Source of the DNA: Syntrophomonadaceae bacterium
GTDB taxonomy: Bacteria > Bacillota > Syntrophomonadia > Syntrophomonadales > Syntrophomonadaceae
Reading direction: 5' to 3'
Length of the DNA stretch: 34,281 nt
Assembly: GCA_012518685.1 (NCBI GenBank)
Contig: JAAYRQ010000110.1
Coordinates: forward strand, 1 to 34,281
Shown: positions 16,075 through 28,177 of the stretch, piece after piece
Position numbering within the stretch: position 1 is the stretch's first letter
Layout of the letters: the number at the start of each line of letters is the position of its first letter
Program-made: the position numbers and the translations under genes
Notes under the pieces: model-generated
Databases searched by the model: none
What the model was told of the DNA's origin: nothing
The model's input: the letters and a program-made list of their open reading frames with translations, nothing else

Positions 16075-19000
16075 ATGCCCCAAGATTTTAAGGATTTTTT
16101 TTATAAGCATACTAATAAAATGGCTGCAGCTTGTTGGGCAAATACCAAAATAGTAAAAACGGAAGTTTTTACTAATAGGGGTTTGTGGCGAATACATATA
16201 AATATTACTTACCCAATTAATGTTGAGGAAATAAACCTAGTTAAAAAAGAATTATTAGAAAAATTTTATTTTTTAAATGACATCGAGATAGTACCGCTTA
16301 TTAGTAAGTCAGAGGTATTAAGAGATTTAGTGTTACAAAATAAGGATGAACTGTCATACTTATTATTTTCTAACTCTAAAATAGCTTCATTAGTTGAATG
16401 GAAGGTAAACGATTTACGGGTTGATTTGGTAACGGAAGATAAAAAAACTTATCTTTATCTTATTGAAAATGATATATGTAATAAGTTAGCTAGTTGGGTA
16501 GAGGATAATTATTCATTAAGAGTTATTGTTAGGGCCATACCCTCAGCTAATCAAATAGTAAACCAAAACACCACTTCTTTTATTTCTCATAAGAAACCAG
16601 ATATTATCGTAAACGAAAGCTATCAGGTTAATAAATTCTCCGAGCCTAACAACAATTATAGAAGAGCCCAAAATAAGAGGTCTAAAGCAGCTTCCATAAC
16701 TCCTGATAGCAAAACTATTGCTATATCGGATGTTCAAGAAGGTATGAGAACAGCTATTGTGATGGGGGAAATATGGCATAAGGAAATTAATTCTCTTAGA
16801 GATGGGCGTTTTGTTGTTAGTTATTATTTAACTGATTATCAGGATACTATTTTAATTAAAAGTTTTTTAGATAAGTTAGCTGATGATACGATTAATATTG
16901 GTGATTGGTTAAAGGTAGAAGGTAGTGTAAGATACGATAATTATGCAGGTGAAGTAATCTTATATCTTAATTCACATCTGCTTTCCGAAAAAACAGAACG
17001 ACAGGATGTAAGTGATGAAAAAAGGGCGGAATTGCACTTACATACTAAAATGAGTGCTATGGATGGCTTGACAGATATTGACAAAATTATAAAAAGGGCT
17101 GCTAAGTGGGGGCATTCAGCTATAGCTATAACCGATCATGGCTGTACTCAAGCATTTCCACAAGCTTATAAAGCTAGTAAGAAATATAATATAAAAGTTA
17201 TTTATGGGGTAGAGGCATATTTAGTAAATGATGATAAAAAGGAAAAACCGCATCATATAATTTTACTAGCCCAAAATTATACGGGTTTAAAAAACTTATA
17301 TAAATTAATAAGTATTTCTTACTTAGATTATTTTTATCGTCATCCTAAAATACCTAAAAAAATATTACTAGAAAACCGTGAAGGGATTTTAATAGGCTCT
17401 GCCTGTGAAGCTGGGGAACTGTATAGTGCTTATATTAATAAATCCAGCCTTAATGAAATCGAGGAAATAGCCCGATTTTATGATTATCTAGAAATTCAGC
17501 CCTTGCAAAATAATAGTTTTTTGATTAGGGATGGATTAGTGAAAAATGAGGAAGAATTAAAAACTATTAATAGGGAAATTCTTCAACTAGGTGCTAAGTT
17601 AGATATTCCTGTAGTTGCTACTGGTGATGTTCATTTTTTAGACCCTAGTGACGAAATCTACCGGAAAATTATTATGGCTGGACAAGGTTATAAGGATGTT
17701 GAAAATGAATTACCTTTGTATTTTAAAACTACTGAAGAGATGTTAGATGATTTTAGTTATTTAGGAATTGCGGATGCTAAAAAGGTAGTTATTGATAATT
17801 CTTTGTTAATTGCTAACAAAATAGAAGATCTTAAACCAGTACCTGATGGCTTTTATCCACCTAAAATTGCCGCAGCCGAGGATGATATTAATCAACTTAC
17901 TTGGCAAGCTGCAAACGAAAAATACGGTCTTGATTTGCCTACTATGGTTGTGGAAAGGATTAATAAGGAATTAGGGGCCATTAATAACCACGGTTTCAGT
18001 GTTTTATATCTAATTGCCCATAAATTAGTTAAAAAATCTAATGAGGATGGCTATACAGTAGGTTCTAGGGGCTCGGTAGGATCTTCCTTAGTAGCTTATT
18101 TAACAGGCATAACGGAGGTTAATCCTTTGCCACCTCATTATAGGTGTCCCAAATGCAAAAACTCAGAATTTATTTCTGATGGAAAGGTGGCGGCAGGGGC
18201 TGATTTACCTGATAAGGATTGTAGTATTTGTGATACTTTGTTAATTAAAGATGGTTTTGATATTCCTTTTGAAACTTTTTTAGGTTTTGAAGGTGATAAG
18301 GTACCTGATATTGACTTGAATTTCTCGGGTGAATATCAAAGTAAAGCCCACCAATATGTGGAGGAATTATTCGGGAGTAGTAATGTTTTTCGGGCTGGTA
18401 CTATTTCAACTATTGCCGAAAAAACTGCTTACGGCTTTGTAAGAAAGTATATGGAAGGTATTAATAAGGTCATAAAAAATTCAGAAATTAACCGTTTGGT
18501 AAAAGGTATTACTGGGGTTAGGCGAACTACAGGTCAGCATCCTGGTGGCTTAATAGTATTACCCCAAGATAAAAATATTTATGAATTCACTCCTTTACAA
18601 TATCCTGCCGATAAAAAGGATGCTGGGGTAATTACTACCCATTTTGAATATAATGCTATAGAGGATCAATTAGTTAAGCTGGATATTCTGGGACACGATG
18701 ATCCAACAGTAATTAAAGAATTAGAGGATTTAACGGGAATAAATGCTGCTAATATTAGTTTAAGTGAGAATAAAACTATGCAGATTTTTTCATCGGTAGA
18801 GCCTCTAGGGCTAAAACCCGAAGATATTAATTCTAGTGTAGGCACTTTTGGTATTCCTGAGTTTGGTACTAAATTTGTTAGGCAGATGCTAGAAGCCACT
18901 AGACCGACAACATTTTCGGAATTAGTAAGAATAAGTGGTTTGTCACATGGTACTGATGTGTGGCTTAATAATGCTCAAAAACTAATTAGTGAAAGAACTG

Positions 19001-19728
19001 CGGAATTGAGTGAAGTAATTTGTACTAGGGATGATATTATGACCTTTTTAATATATAAAGGAATAGAAAAAAAACAAGCCTTCAAAATAATGGAGAAGGT
19101 TAGAAAAGGGCAAAGTCTTACAGCGGATGACGAAAAAGTTATGCGGGAGAATCAAGTACCCGAATGGTACATTGACTCCTGTAATAAAATTAAATATATG
19201 TTTCCTAAGGCTCATGCAGTAGCTTATGTAACCATGGCTTACAGGATTGCTTTTTTCAAGGTTTATTATCCTTTAGCCTTTTATGCTAGTTTTTTTAGTA
19301 TTAGAGCTGAGGATTTTGAGGCTGAAACAATTTTATCAGGTTATGAGGCTATAAAAAACCGTATTCAAATGATAGAAAGTCAAGGATATTCGGCTATTCC
19401 CAAAGACAAGAAATTATTACCTATATTAGAATTAAGTTTGGAAATGTATGCTAGGGGTTTTAGCTTTTTACCTGTAGATATTGAGCTTTCTTCCGCCCAT
19501 AAATTTGTTATTAAAAATAATAGCTTGATTATTCCCTTTTCAGCTTTACCTAATGTAGGCACTAATGCTGCCCGAGATATTGCTAAAGCTGTTAAGAAAG
19601 GTAGTTTTGTATCGGTGGAAGATTTCCAGATTAAGACTAATTTAAACAAAACTGCTATGGAGGAATTAAGAAAATCGGGTTGCTTTAAGGGCTTACCTGA
19701 AAGTACACAAATTAGCTTGTTTGGCTAG
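16075..19728 (+). CDS. polC: DNA polymerase III alpha subunit PolC lacking the exonuclease domain
   Basis: PolC is the main replicative polymerase of Firmicutes. Visible domains are: N-terminal domain (1-200), OB fold (about 220-305, from DVQEGMRTAIVMGEIW), PHP domain (E319 LHLHT, AITDHG at 351-356, GVEA at 378-381, VATGDVHF near 517), a zinc module (C691, C694, C716, C719), the catalytic site VPDIDLNFSGEY (D745, D747), GTDVW in the fingers, and the C-terminal QISLFG beta-clamp motif. The usual length is about 1430; this has 1217. The approximately 190-residue exonuclease normally inserted in the PHP domain is missing, since GVEAYLVNDD runs straight into HHIILLAQN at 394-401, with no DxETTG anywhere. 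The frame stays open and all flanking motifs are intact. Start ATG after AAGGGGG. Confidence 0.97.
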   Translation: MPQDFKDFFYKHTNKMAAACWANTKIVKTEVFTNRGLWRIHINITYPINVEEINLVKKELLEKFYFLNDIEIVPLISKSEVLRDLVLQNKDELSYLLFSNSKIASLVEWKVNDLRVDLVTEDKKTYLYLIENDICNKLASWVEDNYSLRVIVRAIPSANQIVNQNTTSFISHKKPDIIVNESYQVNKFSEPNNNYRRAQNKRSKAASITPDSKTIAISDVQEGMRTAIVMGEIWHKEINSLRDGRFVVSYYLTDYQDTILIKSFLDKLADDTINIGDWLKVEGSVRYDNYAGEVILYLNSHLLSEKTERQDVSDEKRAELHLHTKMSAMDGLTDIDKIIKRAAKWGHSAIAITDHGCTQAFPQAYKASKKYNIKVIYGVEAYLVNDDKKEKPHHIILLAQNYTGLKNLYKLISISYLDYFYRHPKIPKKILLENREGILIGSACEAGELYSAYINKSSLNEIEEIARFYDYLEIQPLQNNSFLIRDGLVKNEEELKTINREILQLGAKLDIPVVATGDVHFLDPSDEIYRKIIMAGQGYKDVENELPLYFKTTEEMLDDFSYLGIADAKKVVIDNSLLIANKIEDLKPVPDGFYPPKIAAAEDDINQLTWQAANEKYGLDLPTMVVERINKELGAINNHGFSVLYLIAHKLVKKSNEDGYTVGSRGSVGSSLVAYLTGITEVNPLPPHYRCPKCKNSEFISDGKVAAGADLPDKDCSICDTLLIKDGFDIPFETFLGFEGDKVPDIDLNFSGEYQSKAHQYVEELFGSSNVFRAGTISTIAEKTAYGFVRKYMEGINKVIKNSEINRLVKGITGVRRTTGQHPGGLIVLPQDKNIYEFTPLQYPADKKDAGVITTHFEYNAIEDQLVKLDILGHDDPTVIKELEDLTGINAANISLSENKTMQIFSSVEPLGLKPEDINSSVGTFGIPEFGTKFVRQMLEATRPTTFSELVRISGLSHGTDVWLNNAQKLISERTAELSEVICTRDDIMTFLIYKGIEKKQAFKIMEKVRKGQSLTADDEKVMRENQVPEWYIDSCNKIKYMFPKAHAVAYVTMAYRIAFFKVYYPLAFYASFFSIRAEDFEAETILSGYEAIKNRIQMIESQGYSAIPKDKKLLPILELSLEMYARGFSFLPVDIELSSAHKFVIKNNSLIIPFSALPNVGTNAARDIAKAVKKGSFVSVEDFQIKTNLNKTAMEELRKSGCFKGLPESTQISLFG

Positions 19729-19783
19729 AAATAGGATTTTATTATAATTTTTAATTTTATTAACTAGAATAAGTCTAGTAAAC

Positions 19784-19813
19784 TTGAATAATGGTATGCA
19801 ATCATGCTATAAT
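19784..19813 (+). promoter_or_regulatory. Promoter of the rimP-nusA-infB operon, extended -10
   Basis: TTGAAT (19784-19789) and a perfect TATAAT (19808-19813) are 18 bases apart, and the -10 is preceded by TGC (extended -10). The predicted start point is about 19820, giving a leader of about 90 bases. An imperfect dyad AATGG/CCATT (19790-19794, 19814-19818) is centred on the promoter. Confidence 0.8.
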
Positions 19814-19841
19814 CCATTGTAGCTAACCAATAATACAAACT

Positions 19842-19866
19842 AAAAGTGGGTGTGCACCCACTTTTT
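19842..19866 (+). terminator. Leader hairpin/attenuator upstream of rimP
   Basis: AAAAGTGGGT (19842-19851) and ACCCACTTTT (19856-19865) form a perfect 10-bp stem around loop GTGC, with TTTTT at 19862-19866 as the U-tract. It lies between the promoter and the rimP start, not after polC alone. It could therefore terminate most leader transcripts and act as an attenuator, as well as stop polC read-through. Confidence 0.75.
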
Positions 19867-19911
19867 CTATTGTATAACTGGATATAAGCTATATTTTTAG
19901 GGGGGAACAAG

Positions 19912-20367
19912 GTGGCGAAATTAAAAGCTAGGGAAATTGAAGAATTACTTTTGCCTATATTTGCCGATTTACAAGTTGAATTGGTTGACATTGAGTACCG
20001 CCTGGAAGATAAGGCACAGATGCTAAGGATTTTTATTGACCATGTAAACGGAATAGATTTAGAAATATGTACTGATGTTACTAAGGTAATAAAGAAGTTC
20101 TTAGATGATGAAGATATTCATTATGAACAATTAGAAGTTTCCTCACCTGGATTAAATAGGATTATTAAAAAGCATCATGATACCAGCAGGTTTATTGGTA
20201 AACAAGTTAAGGTAAAAACTATGAAAAGTTATGAGGGACCCAGAAACATTACAGGTATTTTAAATAATATTAGTGATGAAAATATTAATATTGTGAATGA
20301 TGATAATAATTATCTTATACCTTGGGATGTTGTGTCTAATTTAAGATTACATCCAGATTTTAAATAG
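19912..20367 (+). CDS. rimP: Ribosome maturation factor RimP
   Basis: RimP assists 30S subunit assembly. The 151-residue protein shows the family blocks LVDIEYRLEDKAQMLRIFID and the LEVSSPGLNRII motif at about residues 79-90, followed by an SH3-like C-terminal domain ending in the WDVVSNLRLHPDF region. The start is GTG after AGGGGGG with an 8-base spacer. It is the first gene of the nusA-infB operon, and the gene order rimP-nusA-rnpM-ylxQ-infB is universal in Firmicutes. Confidence 0.95.
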   Translation: MAKLKAREIEELLLPIFADLQVELVDIEYRLEDKAQMLRIFIDHVNGIDLEICTDVTKVIKKFLDDEDIHYEQLEVSSPGLNRIIKKHHDTSRFIGKQVKVKTMKSYEGPRNITGILNNISDENINIVNDDNNYLIPWDVVSNLRLHPDFK

Positions 20368-20377
20368 GAGGAGGAAA

Positions 20378-21571
20378 ATGGCAAACGATTTTATTCAGGC
20401 ATTAGATGAAATTGAAAAGGAACGGGGTATTCCCAAAGATATTCTAATTGATGCAATTAAATCAGCCCTTAATACAGCATATAAAAGGAATTTTGGAGCA
20501 AGCCAGAACTTTAGTGTGGAATTTAATGAATTGTCTGGGGAATTTAAAGTGTTTTCCCAAAAGGCTGTTGTAGAGGAATTAAAAGATGACACAACTGAAA
20601 TTAATATAGAAGATGCTAGGGAATTATATCCTAATTCTAATATTGGGGATATGATTTATGTGGAGACTACCTCGGATAAATTTGGGCGTATTGCTGCTCA
20701 AACAACAAAACAAGTAGTAGTGCAAAAGATTAGAGAAGCTGAAAGAAGCTTGATTTATGAAAAGTTTTTAGAAAGGGAAGGCGAAATAGTAACGGGCATT
20801 ATCCAGAGGATAGAGGGTAAAACTATATATGTTAGTTTAGGTAGAACTGAAGGAATTATGTTGTTACCTGATCAAGTTCCTACGGAAAATTATGAAATAG
20901 ACCAGAGGATTAAAACTTATATTTATGAAGTTAAAAATACGACTAAGGGCCCTAATATCTTCTTATCTAGATCACATCCCTTTTTCTTAAAAAGATTATT
21001 TGAAATGGAAGTTCCTGAAATATTTGATGGAGTAGTGGAAATAAAATCTATTGCTAGGGAAGCGGGATATAGGTCTAAAATCGCGGTATATTCCTTAGAT
21101 GACAAGGTTGATTCTGTAGGAGCCTCGGTTGGACCAAGGGGTTTAAGGGTACAAAATATTGTAAATGAACTAGGTGGGGAAAAAATAGACATTATTAAAT
21201 ATGATAAGGAGCCTGCTAGGTTTATAGCTAACGCTTTAAGCCCTGCCAAGGTTTTAGGAGTATATGTCGATGAAGAAGAGAAAATAGCCCAAGTAATAGT
21301 ACCTGATTATCAATTATCTTTAGCTATTGGAAAAGAAGGACAAAATGCTAGATTAGCAGCGAAATTAACTAATTATAAAGTTGATATAAAAAGTGAAAGC
21401 CAATTAGATGAAAGTGATTACTTTCTTAATATAGAAGAAGAAAATGATTTTGGGGAAGAAGAATATCTCGAACAGGATAATAATGACGACTTCAATGAAA
21501 TTTTCGACGAATCCGAAGAAACTGATACTGATGATGATATGAATATTAAAACAGGTGATGATAATGGCTAA
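20378..21571 (+). CDS. nusA: Transcription termination/antitermination factor NusA
   Basis: NusA binds RNA polymerase and stimulates pausing and intrinsic termination. The 397-residue protein has the N-terminal polymerase-binding domain (1-125), an S1 domain (about 134-200, from EGEIVTGIIQRIEGKTIYV), then two KH domains (about 205-340) with VGPRGLRVQNIV and IGKEGQNARLAAKL as GxxG loops. After residue 345 it has an acidic tail very rich in Asp and Glu, somewhat longer than the Bacillus form (about 370). It lacks the C-terminal repeats found in proteobacteria. The last codons overlap the next gene. Confidence 0.96.
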   Translation: MANDFIQALDEIEKERGIPKDILIDAIKSALNTAYKRNFGASQNFSVEFNELSGEFKVFSQKAVVEELKDDTTEINIEDARELYPNSNIGDMIYVETTSDKFGRIAAQTTKQVVVQKIREAERSLIYEKFLEREGEIVTGIIQRIEGKTIYVSLGRTEGIMLLPDQVPTENYEIDQRIKTYIYEVKNTTKGPNIFLSRSHPFFLKRLFEMEVPEIFDGVVEIKSIAREAGYRSKIAVYSLDDKVDSVGASVGPRGLRVQNIVNELGGEKIDIIKYDKEPARFIANALSPAKVLGVYVDEEEKIAQVIVPDYQLSLAIGKEGQNARLAAKLTNYKVDIKSESQLDESDYFLNIEEENDFGEEEYLEQDNNDDFNEIFDESEETDTDDDMNIKTGDDNG

Positions 21572-21845
21572 AGCTCGTAAGGTCCCTTTACGCATGTGTG
21601 TGGGCTGTCGAGAAATGAAAGTGAAGAAAGAATTAATTAGGATAGTACGGAGTCCAGAAGGCATGCTAGCTATTGATACTACTGGTAAAAAACCAGGCAG
21701 GGGGGCTTATATTTGTCCTAACATAGACTGTTTTAATGAAGCGATTAAAGGCAAAAGGATACAGAAGGCTTTGGAAAAGGAATTAACTTTAGAAATAGAA
21801 AACAGTCTCAAGGAACAAATTGAAGGTCTTAGCTCTGAGTTATAA
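21564..21845 (+). CDS. rnpM: RnpM (YlxR), RNA-binding protein
   Basis: The 93-residue protein has the YlxR signature RMCVGCREMKVKKELIRIV and GRGAYICPNIDCFNEA. YlxR was recently named RnpM because it binds and modulates RNase P in Bacillus; earlier it was only known as a nucleic-acid binding fold. The ATG at 21564 overlaps the last eight bases of nusA and is six bases after AGGTG. A GTG/ATG pair just upstream (21555, 21558) is less well placed. Expect coupled translation with nusA. Confidence 0.92.
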   Translation: MAKARKVPLRMCVGCREMKVKKELIRIVRSPEGMLAIDTTGKKPGRGAYICPNIDCFNEAIKGKRIQKALEKELTLEIENSLKEQIEGLSSEL

Positions 21846-21858
21846 GGTGTGTGATATA

Positions 21859-22203
21859 TTGCAAAAAGTGTATAGTTTGTTAGGTTTTACCCAAAAGGCT
21901 GGGCAATTATCAGCGGGAAATGAAGCAGTTAAAGCTAGTCTAAGTAATGGTAAAGCTAGTTTACTAATTATTAGTAATGATATAGCAGATAATTCCAAAA
22001 AAGAGTTGCTAAATATTAGCCAAAAAGCTAATATTCCCTATATTGTAGTGGGTAGTAAGTACGAATTAGGCTTAAGTATAGGCAAGGCTCATCGAGTAGC
22101 AGTAACTATAAATAATAAAAAAATGGCTGCAGCTATTTTAAAGGCTTTCCAGTGGACGGGAGAAATAAGAGAAACTATGGGGGTGGTTGAATGGCCAAAA
22201 TAA
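21859..22203 (+). CDS. rplGA: L7Ae-family ribosomal protein (YlxQ)
   Basis: YlxQ is an L7Ae-like RNA-binding protein of uncertain role; homologues can bind kink-turn RNA. The protein has the family start [20 protein letters not shown] and the later block [21 protein letters not shown] place the start at TTG 21859, since AAGGTG (21844-21849) is about nine bases before it and the family begins there. Upstream GTG or ATG options (21847, 21820) would overlap rnpM and add residues the family lacks. The symbol follows the common Bacillus name for YlxQ and may be used differently elsewhere. Its end overlaps infB by 13 bases. Confidence 0.88.
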
Positions 22204-24506
22204 GAGTACATGAGTTAGCTAAAGAATTAGGTTTACCAAGTCGTGAATTAGTCAGTGCTTTGCAAAAATTAGGATTAGATGTTAAAAATCATATGAGTAC
22301 TATGGAAGAATCTCAGGTAAAATGGGTCAAAAATCAACTAGACAAACAGGATAAACCTGTATCTAAACATAAAGACGATAAAGTAGTTGATAAAAAACCA
22401 CCACGGGATAAAGATAATAAGACTGTACAAGCTGCAAAAAATCAAGACAAACCTACTTCCTCTCGTCCAGTGACTAGAAAAGATAAGGAGCAGACTGATA
22501 AAAGGGATGTAAATAGGTCTAATCAAAGAACAATGCCTAAAAGTAAAGATGATAGAACTAAAGGGGCAGTTAAGCCTAATCTTAATGTTGTTTCTAAAGA
22601 AAAGAAAGCAGATACTAAAGATACTGTTACAAGGGATAAAAAACATAATAAAAACACTAAGAAGCAAAGAACAACTGATATCCCTGCCCCAAGGAAAGAC
22701 TATAGTCGCCAAGTAAGAAAGCCTAAAAAAAGAAAAAAAGAAGAAGTTATAGAAAAGACACCCGAGTTAATTTCTATTGAGGATAGCATTACAGTTAGAG
22801 AATTAGCAGAACTATTAGTGAAAAGTCCTGCCGAACTAGTAAAAAAGCTTATGGAATTAGGGACTTTGGCTACGGTTAATCAAGATATTGATTATGAAAC
22901 TGCAGAAATATTAGCTAGCTTTTATGAAGTTAAGGTAGAACGGGTAATTTCTGAAGAAGATAAATTATTAGAAGAAATTGTAGATGATGAAAAATCAATG
23001 CAACTTAGACCGCCTATAGTCACGGTTATGGGACATGTTGACCATGGCAAAACATCCTTACTTGATAGAATCAGAAGTGCGGATGTAGTGTCAGGTGAAG
23101 CTGGTGGGATAACCCAACATATTGGAGCATATCAAGTTACCGTTAATGATAATAAAATTACTTTTATAGACACACCTGGTCATGAAGCGTTTACAGCTAT
23201 GAGGGCTAGAGGGGCTAACCTAACTGATATTGTAATTTTAGTTATTGCTGCTGACGATGGGGTTATGCCGCAAACTGTGGAGGCTATCAACCATATCAAA
23301 GCGGCTGGGGTTCCATTCGTAGTAGCTGTTAATAAGGTTGACAAACCTACTGCAGATCCAGATAGAGTTATGCAACAACTCACAGAATATGGCATTGTAC
23401 CAGAGGAATGGGGCGGAGATACTATTTTCGTACCAGTTTCGGCTAAAACTGGTGATAATATTGAAGGATTATTGGAAATGGTTTTATTAGTGGCGGAAGT
23501 CCATGATATTAGGGCTAATCCTAATCGAGTAGCTGAAGGTGTTGTCATAGAAGGGGAACTTGATAAAGGTCGAGGACCAGTTGCCACGGTCTTAGTCCTT
23601 AAAGGTACCTTAAATGTAGGGGATTTTCTAATATGCGGTAATAGCCTATGCAAGGTAAGGGCTATGAGTGACTACAGAGGACGCAAGGTAGAGAAAGCAC
23701 TGCCTTCTATGCCTATTGAAATAATGGGTTGGTCTGATGTCCCCGAAGCTGGTGCTAGGGTACAGGCTTGTGATGAAAAGGTAGCTAAAGAAGTATTAAG
23801 CTTAAGAGAGAATGAAAGAAAATTAGAAGAACAAAAGAGAAGCAGTAAGGTTTCCTTAGATGATTTCTTTAAACAGATGCAAGATGCGGAAGTTAAGGAG
23901 TTAAACTTAATTATAAAAGGTGATGTGCAAGGTTCTATTGAAGCACTAAGCCAATCATTAATAAGATTATCAACTAACGAAGTTAAGGTAAGTGTCATAC
24001 ATTCTGCGGTAGGGGCTGTTACAGAAACTGATGTTATGTTGGCTACAGCATCTAATGCTATTATTATAGGCTTTAATGTAAGGCCAGACAGCAATGCCCG
24101 TAAAAGTGCGGAACTAGAAAATATTGATGTTAGATTATATCGGGTTATATATGAGGCCATAGAAGATGTGAAGAAAGCTATGGTAGGCTTGCTTGACCCC
24201 GAATATAAAGAAAAGTTTATAGGCAGGGCTGAAGTTAGAACAACTTTTAAAGTACCCAATGTAGGTACTGTCGCGGGTTCTTATGTAATTGATGGGAAAA
24301 TGCAGAGAAATGCCAATATCAGGGTGTTAAGGGATGGAGTAATTATTTACGAAGGTAGCTTATCCTCATTAAAAAGATTTAAAGATGATGTTAGAGAAGT
24401 AGCAGAAAGCTATGAATGTGGAATAGGTATCAAGGATTTTAATGATATTAAAGATGGTGATGTAATTGAAGCATTTACTATGGAAGAAATCCCCAGGGAA
24501 CTATAA
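22191..24506 (+). CDS. infB: Translation initiation factor IF-2
   Basis: IF-2 is the GTPase that places fMet-tRNA on the ribosome and joins the subunits. The 771-residue protein has an N-terminal helical IF2-N domain (1-50), a Lys/Asp-rich disordered linker (about 50-195), a second IF2-N (about 200-250), then the G domain: GHVDHGKTS (281-289), [24 protein letters not shown] and SAKTG, all intact. Domains II, III and C2 follow. The ATG overlaps ylxQ. Initiation in this organism may have to cope with many TTG/GTG and possible ATA starts. Confidence 0.98.
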
Positions 24507-24533
24507 TTAATTTTAGATTTAGGAGGGTTAATT

Positions 24534-24887
24534 ATGAGTCGCAGACAAGAAAGAATGGCGGAAGAAACTAAAAGATTATTAGCCCAAATATTACAGAATT
24601 TAAAAGATCCTAGACTTAACTTATCAACCATAACTATCACTAGAGTAGATATTTCTAATGATTTGGGTCATGCTAAAATTAATGTAAGTATTCTAGCTAA
24701 TGAAGAAGAGCAAAAAACTGCTTTTAATATTATACAAAAAGCTAAAGGCTTTATTCGGACGGAGCTGGCTAAACAATTAGATGTTAGATATGCACCTGAA
24801 TTAGAATTTAGGTTAGATAAGTCCATTGAACATGGGATTAAGATTTCCCATTTATTAGATGAAATTAAGGAAGGAAAACAAAATTAG
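24534..24887 (+). CDS. rbfA: Ribosome-binding factor A
   Basis: RbfA assists 16S rRNA maturation and cold adaptation by binding the 30S subunit. The 117-residue protein begins MSRRQERMAEETKRLLAQIL and includes LKDPRL and a TITRVDISNDLGHAKINVSI block and the VRYAPELEFRLDKSIEHG motif, as expected of the family. ATG follows AGGAGGG by 7 bases. The small gene ylxP that Bacillus has between infB and rbfA is absent here; only 27 bases separate the two genes. Confidence 0.96.
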   Translation: MSRRQERMAEETKRLLAQILQNLKDPRLNLSTITITRVDISNDLGHAKINVSILANEEEQKTAFNIIQKAKGFIRTELAKQLDVRYAPELEFRLDKSIEHGIKISHLLDEIKEGKQN

Positions 24888-24892
24888 CCATA

Positions 24893-25861
24893 ATGAACAA
24901 TAATATTCAAGAAATAGCTGCAGAATTAAAAAGCAGGAACCATTACCTTTTACTAGGGCATGCTATTCCCGATGGCGATTGCATAGGTTCTATATTAGGG
25001 TTATACCAAGGATTAATGGCCATTAACAAAAAGGTCACTATGTTCATTTATGATGATATTCCTAGTATTTATAGCTATCTATCTGATATAGAAAAAGTTA
25101 GCAATAATCTACCATCAGGGGAAAAAGTAGAAAATATAGTTTTTTTAGATTGTAGTGATCAAAACAGGATTAATGAAGGAATATTTGATAGACTACCTAA
25201 AAATGCTACAATTTTTAATATTGACCACCATGTAAGTAATAATTTTTTTGGTGATTATAATTATGTGCTGCCCTTAGCATCTGCTACGGCTGAAATTGTT
25301 TATGAATTATTAGTAGAAATGCAGATTCCTATAAATAATGTGATGGCTAATTCCTTATATGCGGGAATTGTAATGGATACGGGTAATTTTAAATATAACA
25401 ATACTACTGCAAAAACGCACCATATTGCTGCAGAGCTTATCGCTAAAGGGGCCAACTTAGAAGAGGCCAGAATTAATCTGTTTGAATCTAAGCCTTTAAC
25501 TGAAGTTTTATTATTAGGAAAGGCATTACAGAACCTTTACCTTAGTGAAGATGGTAAAATTGCTTGGATCTTATTATCTTATAATGATATTAATGAATTA
25601 GGGGCAAAAGGCTTGCACCCTGAAGGTTTAATTAACTATACTCGTATGATTAATGGAGTAGAAGTGGGTATGATATTCAGGGAGATAGAACCTAATCTGA
25701 TAAAAATAGGTTTCAGATCAAAAAGGAAGATAGATGTAGAGGCTATAGCTGCAGAATTAGGTGGCGGGGGCCATAAGCTGTCCGCGGGTGCCAAACAAGA
25801 AGGAAACCTAAATTCTGTCGTCGAAAAAGTATTGCAAATTGTGCAAAAAGCGGTGTTATGA
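24893..25861 (+). CDS. nrnA: DHH-family bifunctional oligoribonuclease/pAp phosphatase NrnA
   Basis: NrnA degrades short RNAs of 2-5 nucleotides and dephosphorylates pAp. The 322-residue protein has the DHH motifs: HAIPDGDCIG (H23, D27, D29), FLDCSD (about 83-88), NIDHHVSNN (D111, H112, H113) and MDTGNFKY. The C-terminal DHHA1 domain ends with the GGGGHKLSAGA motif that binds substrate. The ATG is six bases after the rbfA stop with no good Shine-Dalgarno, so it is probably translated by coupling. It overlaps truB by four bases. It lies between rbfA and truB, which in Bacillus are adjacent. Confidence 0.92.
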   Translation: MNNNIQEIAAELKSRNHYLLLGHAIPDGDCIGSILGLYQGLMAINKKVTMFIYDDIPSIYSYLSDIEKVSNNLPSGEKVENIVFLDCSDQNRINEGIFDRLPKNATIFNIDHHVSNNFFGDYNYVLPLASATAEIVYELLVEMQIPINNVMANSLYAGIVMDTGNFKYNNTTAKTHHIAAELIAKGANLEEARINLFESKPLTEVLLLGKALQNLYLSEDGKIAWILLSYNDINELGAKGLHPEGLINYTRMINGVEVGMIFREIEPNLIKIGFRSKRKIDVEAIAAELGGGGHKLSAGAKQEGNLNSVVEKVLQIVQKAVL

Positions 25862-26757
25862 TGGATGGTTTCCTAGTGATTAATAAACCTGCTAATATGA
25901 CTTCTTATGATGTAATTAGAAAGCTAAAAAAGTTATTGCCTAGAAAAACTAAAATAGGACATTTAGGAACCCTTGATCCAATGGTTACAGGGGTTTTACC
26001 TATTGCTGTAGGAAATGCTACGAAGATTATACCATTTATTGAAGATGAGACTAAGGAGTATGTGGCGACTTTGACTCTAGGTGGTCATTCTGATACGGAG
26101 GATGCTTGGGGAAATATTACTTATAGCTATGATTTTGCAGTAAATGAGGAGCAAATAATAGATGTAATTAATAGTATGGTTGGTGAAATTGAACAAACGC
26201 CGCCTATGTATTCTGCTATACACCATGAGGGTAAAAAGTTATACGAATTAGCAAGGCAAGGGATAACTATAGAAAGGGCTAGCCGCAAAGTCAATATATA
26301 TGAAATTGAAATAATAAATATTAATCTTAATGTAAAACTCCCACGGGTAGAATTCAGGGTCCTTTGTTCTAAGGGGACTTACATTAGAACCTTATGCAAG
26401 GATATAGGTGAGAAATTAGGAATAGGTGGTTATTTATCTAGTCTAGTTCGGACTAAATCTGGTGTTTTCGCTATAAATCAAAGTCAGAAACTAAAAGATA
26501 TCATAGAATACGCTGATTTTATGGATAAATATAAGCTACCACTAGATTATCCTATACTTGATTGGCCTATTTATCAGCTTAAAAATGAAAATGAATGGTT
26601 TGCTATTATTAATGGCAACACTATTAATATAGAATTAGGAGAAAAACTGCCACTAGGTCATATTAGGATATATTATAATAATTTTTTAATAGCTTTAGCG
26701 AAGGTAGTTGAAGAAGGTTTAGCCATTAAACCAGTAAGAGTATTTAATACAGTTTAA
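25858..26757 (+). CDS. truB: tRNA pseudouridine(55) synthase TruB
   Basis: TruB makes pseudouridine 55 in the T loop of tRNAs. The 299-residue protein has the catalytic segment HLGTLDPMVTGVLPIAVG with catalytic D40, and KPANMTSYDVI at the N-terminus, and the YSAIHHEGKKLYELAR and SKGTYIRTLCKDIGEKLG blocks. A C-terminal PUA-like region (about 230-299) follows. The ATG overlaps the nrnA stop (ATGATGG), with no strong Shine-Dalgarno, so reading is likely coupled. Confidence 0.96.
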   Translation: MMDGFLVINKPANMTSYDVIRKLKKLLPRKTKIGHLGTLDPMVTGVLPIAVGNATKIIPFIEDETKEYVATLTLGGHSDTEDAWGNITYSYDFAVNEEQIIDVINSMVGEIEQTPPMYSAIHHEGKKLYELARQGITIERASRKVNIYEIEIININLNVKLPRVEFRVLCSKGTYIRTLCKDIGEKLGIGGYLSSLVRTKSGVFAINQSQKLKDIIEYADFMDKYKLPLDYPILDWPIYQLKNENEWFAIINGNTINIELGEKLPLGHIRIYYNNFLIALAKVVEEGLAIKPVRVFNTV

Positions 26758-26769
26758 GGGAGAATATAA

Positions 26770-27714
26770 ATGGAAATTATCAGGGAAATTACTAATTACC
26801 AAACTAATAATAAACCATTATATTTGGCTTTAGGTAATTTTGATGGGGTACATAAAGGTCACAAAAAACTACTTAGTGAGGCAGTCAAAATTGCCCAAGA
26901 TAATAATGGTTTTGCAGCTGCCTTAATTTTTGATCCCCACCCTAATAAAGTGCTTAATCCTGATAGGAATTTTAAGTTAATTACTAAAAATGATAAACAA
27001 GCAGAACTATTACGGGAAATAGGCATAGATATTTTAATATATAATTCTTTTAATAAGGAAATTTCCCAGTGGATTCCAGAAGACTTCGTAAAAAAAGTTA
27101 TAATTTCTAAGTTAAATGCAAAACATGTTTTTGTGGGATTTAACTATTCTTTCGGTTATAAAGGGCAAGGTACGCCCGAATTATTAAAGAAATTAGGGGA
27201 TAAGTATAATTTTGCGGTTAGTATAATTCCGCCTGTTAGTCAAAATAATCAAGTAGTATCAAGTAGTATAATTAGGGAAATGATAGAAAACGGACAGATT
27301 AAAAAGGCCAAAAATCTATTGGATTATTATCCTGTAGTAACAGGCATAGTTGTCGAAGGAGATAAAAGGGGCGGGGATAAGATAGGCTTTCCTACGGCTA
27401 ATCTTAAAGTAGATGGGGACATTATAATCCCAGCTACGGGTGTGTATGCAGCTAAGGCAAAGCACAAAGGAACTCTTTATAATTGTGTGGTTAATGTAGG
27501 AAGGAAACCTACATTTCACGATAATCATCCTGTAACTATAGAAGCACACATAATTGATTTTTCGACCGATATTTATGGTGATGGCTTAGAAATTATATTT
27601 TTAGATAAGATTAGGGATGAAATGAAGTTTGCAGATATTGATAGTTTGGCAAAACAGATTAGTATAGATAAAGACACAGCTAAAAGAATATCTTCCGCAA
27701 CTAAGCTAGGTTAA
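26770..27714 (+). CDS. ribF: Bifunctional riboflavin kinase/FAD synthetase
   Basis: RibF makes FMN and FAD from riboflavin. The 314-residue protein has the N-terminal FAD synthetase nucleotidyltransferase domain (LALGNFDGVHKGHKKLL, DPHPN, and SSSIIREMIENG) and a C-terminal riboflavin kinase domain (about 185-310) with GGDKIGFPTANL and NVGRKPTF. Length matches the family. The ATG is seven bases after AAGGGAGA. It is the last gene of the rimP-nusA-infB set; a separate rpsO promoter starts just after its stop. Confidence 0.96.
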   Translation: MEIIREITNYQTNNKPLYLALGNFDGVHKGHKKLLSEAVKIAQDNNGFAAALIFDPHPNKVLNPDRNFKLITKNDKQAELLREIGIDILIYNSFNKEISQWIPEDFVKKVIISKLNAKHVFVGFNYSFGYKGQGTPELLKKLGDKYNFAVSIIPPVSQNNQVVSSSIIREMIENGQIKKAKNLLDYYPVVTGIVVEGDKRGGDKIGFPTANLKVDGDIIIPATGVYAAKAKHKGTLYNCVVNVGRKPTFHDNHPVTIEAHIIDFSTDIYGDGLEIIFLDKIRDEMKFADIDSLAKQISIDKDTAKRISSATKLG

Positions 27715-27879: not shown

Positions 27880-28149
27880 ATGGCATTAAGTCAAGAAAGA
27901 AAGCTGGAGTTAATTAAAAGTTTTCAAATCCATGAAAACGATACTGGTTCTCCAGAAGTACAAATTGCTATTTTAACTGAAAGAATTAATTATCTTAATG
28001 AACATCTAAAAAGTAATAAAAAAGACCATCATTCTAGGCGTGGTCTATTAAAAATGGTAGGACAAAGAAGAGCCTTATTAGACTACCTAAGAGATAATGA
28101 TTTTGATAGGTACAGAAACATCGTAACTAGATTAGGCTTAAGAAGGTAA
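27880..28149 (+). CDS. rpsO: 30S ribosomal protein S15
   Basis: S15 is a primary binder of the 16S rRNA central domain. The 89-residue protein contains the signature [20 protein letters not shown] and [19 protein letters not shown] and has the family length. ATG follows GAGGAGG by a spacer of about eight. The stop codon is built into the stem of the terminator that follows. It is placed upstream of pnp as in most bacteria, and the two may share transcripts. Confidence 0.98.
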
Positions 28150-28177
28150 AGAGCGGAAACTGCCGCTCTTTAGTTTT
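28147..28177 (+). terminator. Terminator between rpsO and pnp
   Basis: TAAAGAGCGG (28147-28156) pairs perfectly with CCGCTCTTTA (28163-28172) around loop AAACTG; the tail GTTTT is short. The rpsO stop codon TAA is the base of the stem. The weak U-tract suggests incomplete termination, with some read-through into pnp. Confidence 0.8.

Follow-up and report, generated by a model that had tools for sequence, protein, structure and literature searches.

An autoregulatory terminator in the NusA leader of Bacillus subtilis was reportedly described by Mondal in 2016. According to a 2025 review (PMC12288461), B. subtilis NusA is autoregulated via NusA-stimulated termination in its leader; for this and the other papers cited here, our statements hold for the accessible parts of the text. 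The initial annotation of the present locus had stated that the Bacillus nusA operon is autoregulated by leader termination, and the review bears this out. This kind of leader is widespread and has been described before: in PMC2965389, Naville and Gautheret (2010) call the rimP-leader the most ubiquitous of attenuators; its G-rich/C-rich stem is conserved, it has no antiterminator, and NusA is the effector they propose. The Rfam family RF01770 (rimP) resembles our locus in gene context, by name.

We analysed a stretch of 34,281 nucleotides from a Syntrophomonadaceae bacterium (contig JAAYRQ010000110.1), called the window below; judged by NusA, the named genomes closest to it are metagenome assemblies of Syntrophomonadaceae/Syntrophomonas. 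Its features are collected in Table 1. NusA is intact and is encoded by the second gene of the operon, while ribF, rpsO, and pnp lie further downstream of rbfA.

Table 1. Features of the rimP-nusA leader and its surroundings in the window.
Feature	Position	Strand	Evidence or remarks
polC	16075-19728		upstream of leader
Extended -10 promoter	19784..19813	+	TTGAAT 19784-19789; spacer 18 nt with terminal TGC 19805-19807; -10 TATAAT 19808-19813 (window sequence); TGnTATAnT columns invariant in 22/22 family leaders
5' leader element conserved at family level; consensus of the family AAGCTTACTAATA, of the window TAGCTAACCAATA	19820..19832	+	conserved as sequence, not by pairing
Terminator hairpin (rimP-leader stem), AAAAGTGGGT-GTGC-ACCCACTTTT	19842..19865	+	sequence, folding, conservation in relatives; 10 bp; 5' arm 19842-19851, loop 19852-19855, 3' arm 19856-19865
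U tract TTTTTCTAT, interrupted at C19867 and A19869	19862..19870	+	TTTTT run 19862-19866; TTTTTCTAT in 15/22 family leaders; 6th-position C in 21/22
rimP ribosome-binding site, GGGGGG	19900..19905	+	sequence
rimP	19912..20367	+	Pfam RimP_N and DUF150_C pass cut-off; NCBIfam RimP models fall short of theirs
nusA (NTD, S1, KH; proposed effector)	20378..21571	+	TIGR01953 above cut-off; Pfam NusA_N, S1, KH_5
rnpM/ylxR, YlxQ-like, infB, rbfA	21555..24887	+	closely packed; RnpM, IF-2, RbfA models above cut-off; YlxQ-type below cut-off
rpsO-pnp intercistronic hairpin TAAAGAGCGGAAACTGCCGCTCTTTA, AAGAGYGG stem type	28147..28172	+	related site outside leader; pattern, conservation

Judged by its sequence, the leader of the window is a member of the published rimP-leader attenuator class (PMC2965389). 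It stands before rimP-nusA-infB, combines a G-rich 5' arm, a C-rich 3' arm, and a T stretch (GTGGGT-GTGC-ACCCAC followed by TTTTT), and shows no visible antiterminator. The hairpin ends 45-46 nt before the rimP GTG, within the published range of 4-130 nt before the start codon. However, the published stem reads GGGc...gCCC, whereas the window has GGGT...ACCC, so that the inner c/g pair is U-A. The Syntrophomonadaceae leaders also carry two extras relative to the published description, an AGC..AATA element and a conserved tail, TTTTTCTATTGT, that is nearly unchanged across the family leaders. By its description, the B. subtilis nusA operon likewise has a terminator in its 5' leader (PMC12288461); the Bacillaceae loci of our set share the stem type of the window. 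As in the B. subtilis type, the promoter lies upstream and the terminator inside the transcribed leader, as judged in silico and by conservation.

The initial annotation had read TTGAAT, TGC, and TATAAT as an extended -10 promoter, followed after 28 nt (19814-19841) by a perfect 10-bp stem with TTTTT and then 45 nt to rimP; both descriptions are exact to the base. The hairpin has a minimum free energy of -12.6 kcal/mol (z -2.97). Simple pattern scans of positions 17000-27000 found no excess of promoters (35 against 40.3 expected from shuffles) or of terminators (5 against 5.3). Such chance-level scans make the single-sequence observation weak by itself, and the promoter and the hairpin are significant because they are conserved in relatives.

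Searching with NusA, we obtained 110 loci (L003-L112) and recognised rimP in 107 of them (not in L097, L101, and L109). Upstream of rimP, 95 of these 107 Firmicutes loci, all 22 family-level ones among them, carry the hairpin [AG]GTGGG-loop-CCC[AG]CT or a variant under slightly relaxed rules. The strict form occurs in 90/107 rimP leaders and in none of 1476 control windows (330 nt) from the same loci. Twelve of the 107 leaders lacked the motif under this search expression. On reading their sequences, we find that three (L103, L104, and L105) have AGAGTGGG and CCCGCTTTTT arms flanking a long loop; the other nine have a different hairpin or none visible.

Among dereplicated leaders (20 from the family and 53 others), information content is highest at the stem letters and in the tail; the search expression partly fixes the former, not the latter. 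Across 65 leaders, 97.1% of cells agree with a 9-pair stem. Two-sided changes number 12 in these leaders, and 11 fall on a single outer pair; the 22 family leaders show only 3. The support for the stem comes mainly from invariance and a slide control, not from rich covariation. We dropped the asymmetry of the arms, where A/G variation is confined to the 3' arm, as evidence, since the search expression partly builds it in.

A covariance model built from the 65 leaders (R1) was run on 41 genomes. By coordinates, in 36/36 genomes with a NusA match the best hit of the model falls 0.5-0.8 kb ahead of nusA; most of these genomes fed the model, and six (G034 and G036-G040) contributed no sequence. 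Across the phylum, 279/299 genomes had a match at E 0.05 or better, counted regardless of position and with rough E-values. Secondary matches in 20 regions comprised three rimP leaders (L169, L172, and L174) and four rpsO-pnp hairpins (L164-L167); we rejected them as a regulon, the remaining 13 lying in mixed contexts and looking like ordinary terminators. The pattern AGTGGGN3-9CCCACTTTTT gave 21 sites, 20 of which are rimP leaders. The extra AGTGGG...CCCACTTTTT match (L133, about 1500-1530; G022:C84) lies just beyond a MinC/MinD-type cluster, as read from translations; it faces an opposite-strand gene and looks like an ordinary terminator.

The position of the promoter relative to the hairpin is likewise conserved. 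An extended -10 sits 30-35 nt 5' of the AGTGGG/GGTGGG hairpin before rimP in 22/22 family-level loci. It occurs at most 60 nt upstream of the hairpin in 70 of the 95 hairpin-bearing Firmicutes loci, compared with 4.5% of shuffled stretches, and a promoter motif downstream of the hairpin was found in only one of the 95. With the promoter conserved upstream and almost absent downstream, the hairpin very likely lies within the transcribed leader. This placement argues against a reading in which the hairpin merely ends the polC transcript and the rimP promoter lies downstream of it. polC is indeed upstream in 76/95 loci, but 19 of these hairpin-bearing loci have no PolC match, and in 12 of the 19 the upstream sequence covered at least about 2.3 kb. 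By these comparisons the hairpin tracks rimP, not polC, and we regard the polC-terminator reading as highly improbable. The order of promoter, hairpin, U tract, and operon, together with its conservation, is established here. The initial annotation had proposed a leader attenuator of the rimP-nusA-infB operon, and on sequence grounds this reading is well supported: promoter and hairpin are conserved together, the downstream promoter is nearly missing, and the element is a published one.

The anatomy of the terminator bears on whether the attenuator responds to NusA. Terminal A-U pairs and distal interruptions of the U tract go with NusA- and NusG-dependent terminators (PMC8060035), and the hairpin of the window has four terminal A-U pairs and distal U-tract interruptions, the features of a suboptimal terminator in that paper. 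These features are non-specific: the rpsO-pnp hairpins of the same genomes also combine an interrupted U tract with a conserved stem, and neither of the two singles out a site of NusA feedback. A constitutive partial terminator would explain all the sequence features equally; readthrough from its own promoter would then be low and constant, the operon would be shielded from polC read-through, and there would be no feedback. In the window, the polC stop lies 116 nt upstream of AGTGGG. However, Firmicutes leaders share the primary sequence of both stem and tail to a degree that a generic terminator would not need, and NusA feedback in the B. subtilis leader is reported (PMC12288461). We consider a fixed terminator rather unlikely.

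We examined the rpsO-pnp gap as a control for stem conservation. GAGCGG-loop-CCGCTCTT occurs there in 30/30 family/order loci, mostly straight after the rpsO stop. The pattern AAGAGYGG-N3-9-CCRCTCTT gave 46 sites in 36 of 41 genomes, while the reversed-pattern control matched in 2 genomes. By coordinates, 11 of the 46 sites are rimP leaders, 32 lie directly after rpsO before pnp, and three are elsewhere (G038:C11, G027:C18, and G028:C55). The window and most family rimP leaders have a shorter AAGTGGG stem, which this pattern does not match. Over 60 phylum genomes, the rpsO-pnp form appeared in 12 strictly and in 36 loosely; being much less uniform across the phylum, it leaves room for a preference of Bacillota terminators in general for AAAGCGGG...CCCGCTTT, which may partly account for the likeness of the two hairpins. 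Our search, which was non-exhaustive and included the accessible parts of PMC12350095 and PMC2965389, found no published rpsO-pnp hairpin of this kind.

The rimP leader is not alone in having an invariant stem, which weakens the argument for a dedicated regulator and brings a common one into consideration. The rimP-nusA and rpsO-pnp hairpins could be sister sites that the same sequence-specific factor reads, be it NusA, PNPase, or a cold-shock protein, coupling NusA/IF2 to PNPase expression; we give this idea little credence. An attenuator with another effector, for example antitermination by cold-shock proteins or a protein that recognises the sequence of the AGUGGG stem, would also agree with the conserved stem and tail sequence and with the similar hairpin type before pnp. 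In E. coli, CspA has been proposed to act by antitermination on nusA, infB, rbfA, and pnp (Bae 2000, via PMC6511841). However, the E. coli data in PMC6511841 are inconsistent with this proposal, and nothing comparable for Firmicutes was found in the accessible parts of the literature examined. We find another effector distinctly unlikely.

Elsewhere in the leader, AGC..AATA occurs 8-28 nt upstream of the hairpin in 14/22 family leaders, compared with 0.6% of shuffles, and in 0/73 other Firmicutes leaders. GATA stands at the same place in 36 of those 73 leaders (13% of shuffles). The family element lies just after the expected transcript start. Its ACUAAUA motif resembles the NusA KH target reported for Mycobacterium tuberculosis; that NusA binds the element is only a guess.

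No conserved antiterminator is visible, and a consensus fold of the 22 family leaders gives no alternative structure; this is expected if a termination factor, not a riboswitch, decides. The 5' arm of the window can form at most 3 contiguous pairs with the upstream leader. At least 6 contiguous pairs (G-U counted) are possible in 9/22 family leaders, and a weak antiterminator may thus exist in some relatives. In some relatives the family element GCTTACT can pair with AGTGGGT (G-U included); we rejected this pairing as a general mechanism, because 13/22 leaders, the window included, have fewer than 6 contiguous pairs. The whole leader of the window (19818-19893) also folds into a single long, imperfect hairpin that encloses the terminator (z -4.93). 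We treat this larger structure as window-specific, the 22-leader consensus fold retaining the terminator hairpin only.

Scanning the window against Rfam, we found no family at gathering level. RF01770 fell below its gathering threshold, and even with the limit relaxed to E 10 it had no hit in the leader of the window; it matched 0/41 relatives and, among 14 control genomes, E. coli only. Low-threshold matches to the leader came from unrelated families with scores far below gathering, and were discarded.

Taking the above together, we favour NusA feedback attenuation of rimP-nusA-rnpM-ylxQ-infB-rbfA by the rimP-leader attenuator as the probable mechanism. NusA dependence in this organism is plausible from B. 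subtilis homology and the anatomy of the terminator. Transcription of the operon would start about 7 nt past TATAAT, near 19820, and RNA polymerase would reach the hairpin within roughly 50 nt. The four terminal A-U pairs and the interrupted U tract would make termination incomplete, and NusA bound to RNA polymerase would favour pausing and the folding of the hairpin. With plentiful NusA, a larger share of transcripts would end near 19870-19873; with scarce NusA, more readthrough into the operon would follow. We infer that the terminator works in vivo, with NusA as the limiting effector and feedback of this sign.

Syntrophomonadales and much of Bacillota have kept the leader terminator of the NusA operon, its sequence included; this Firmicutes form of the leader escapes the Rfam rimP model. 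If the same factor reads the sibling hairpin between rpsO and pnp, the control of transcription termination and RNA decay would be linked via a shared hairpin.
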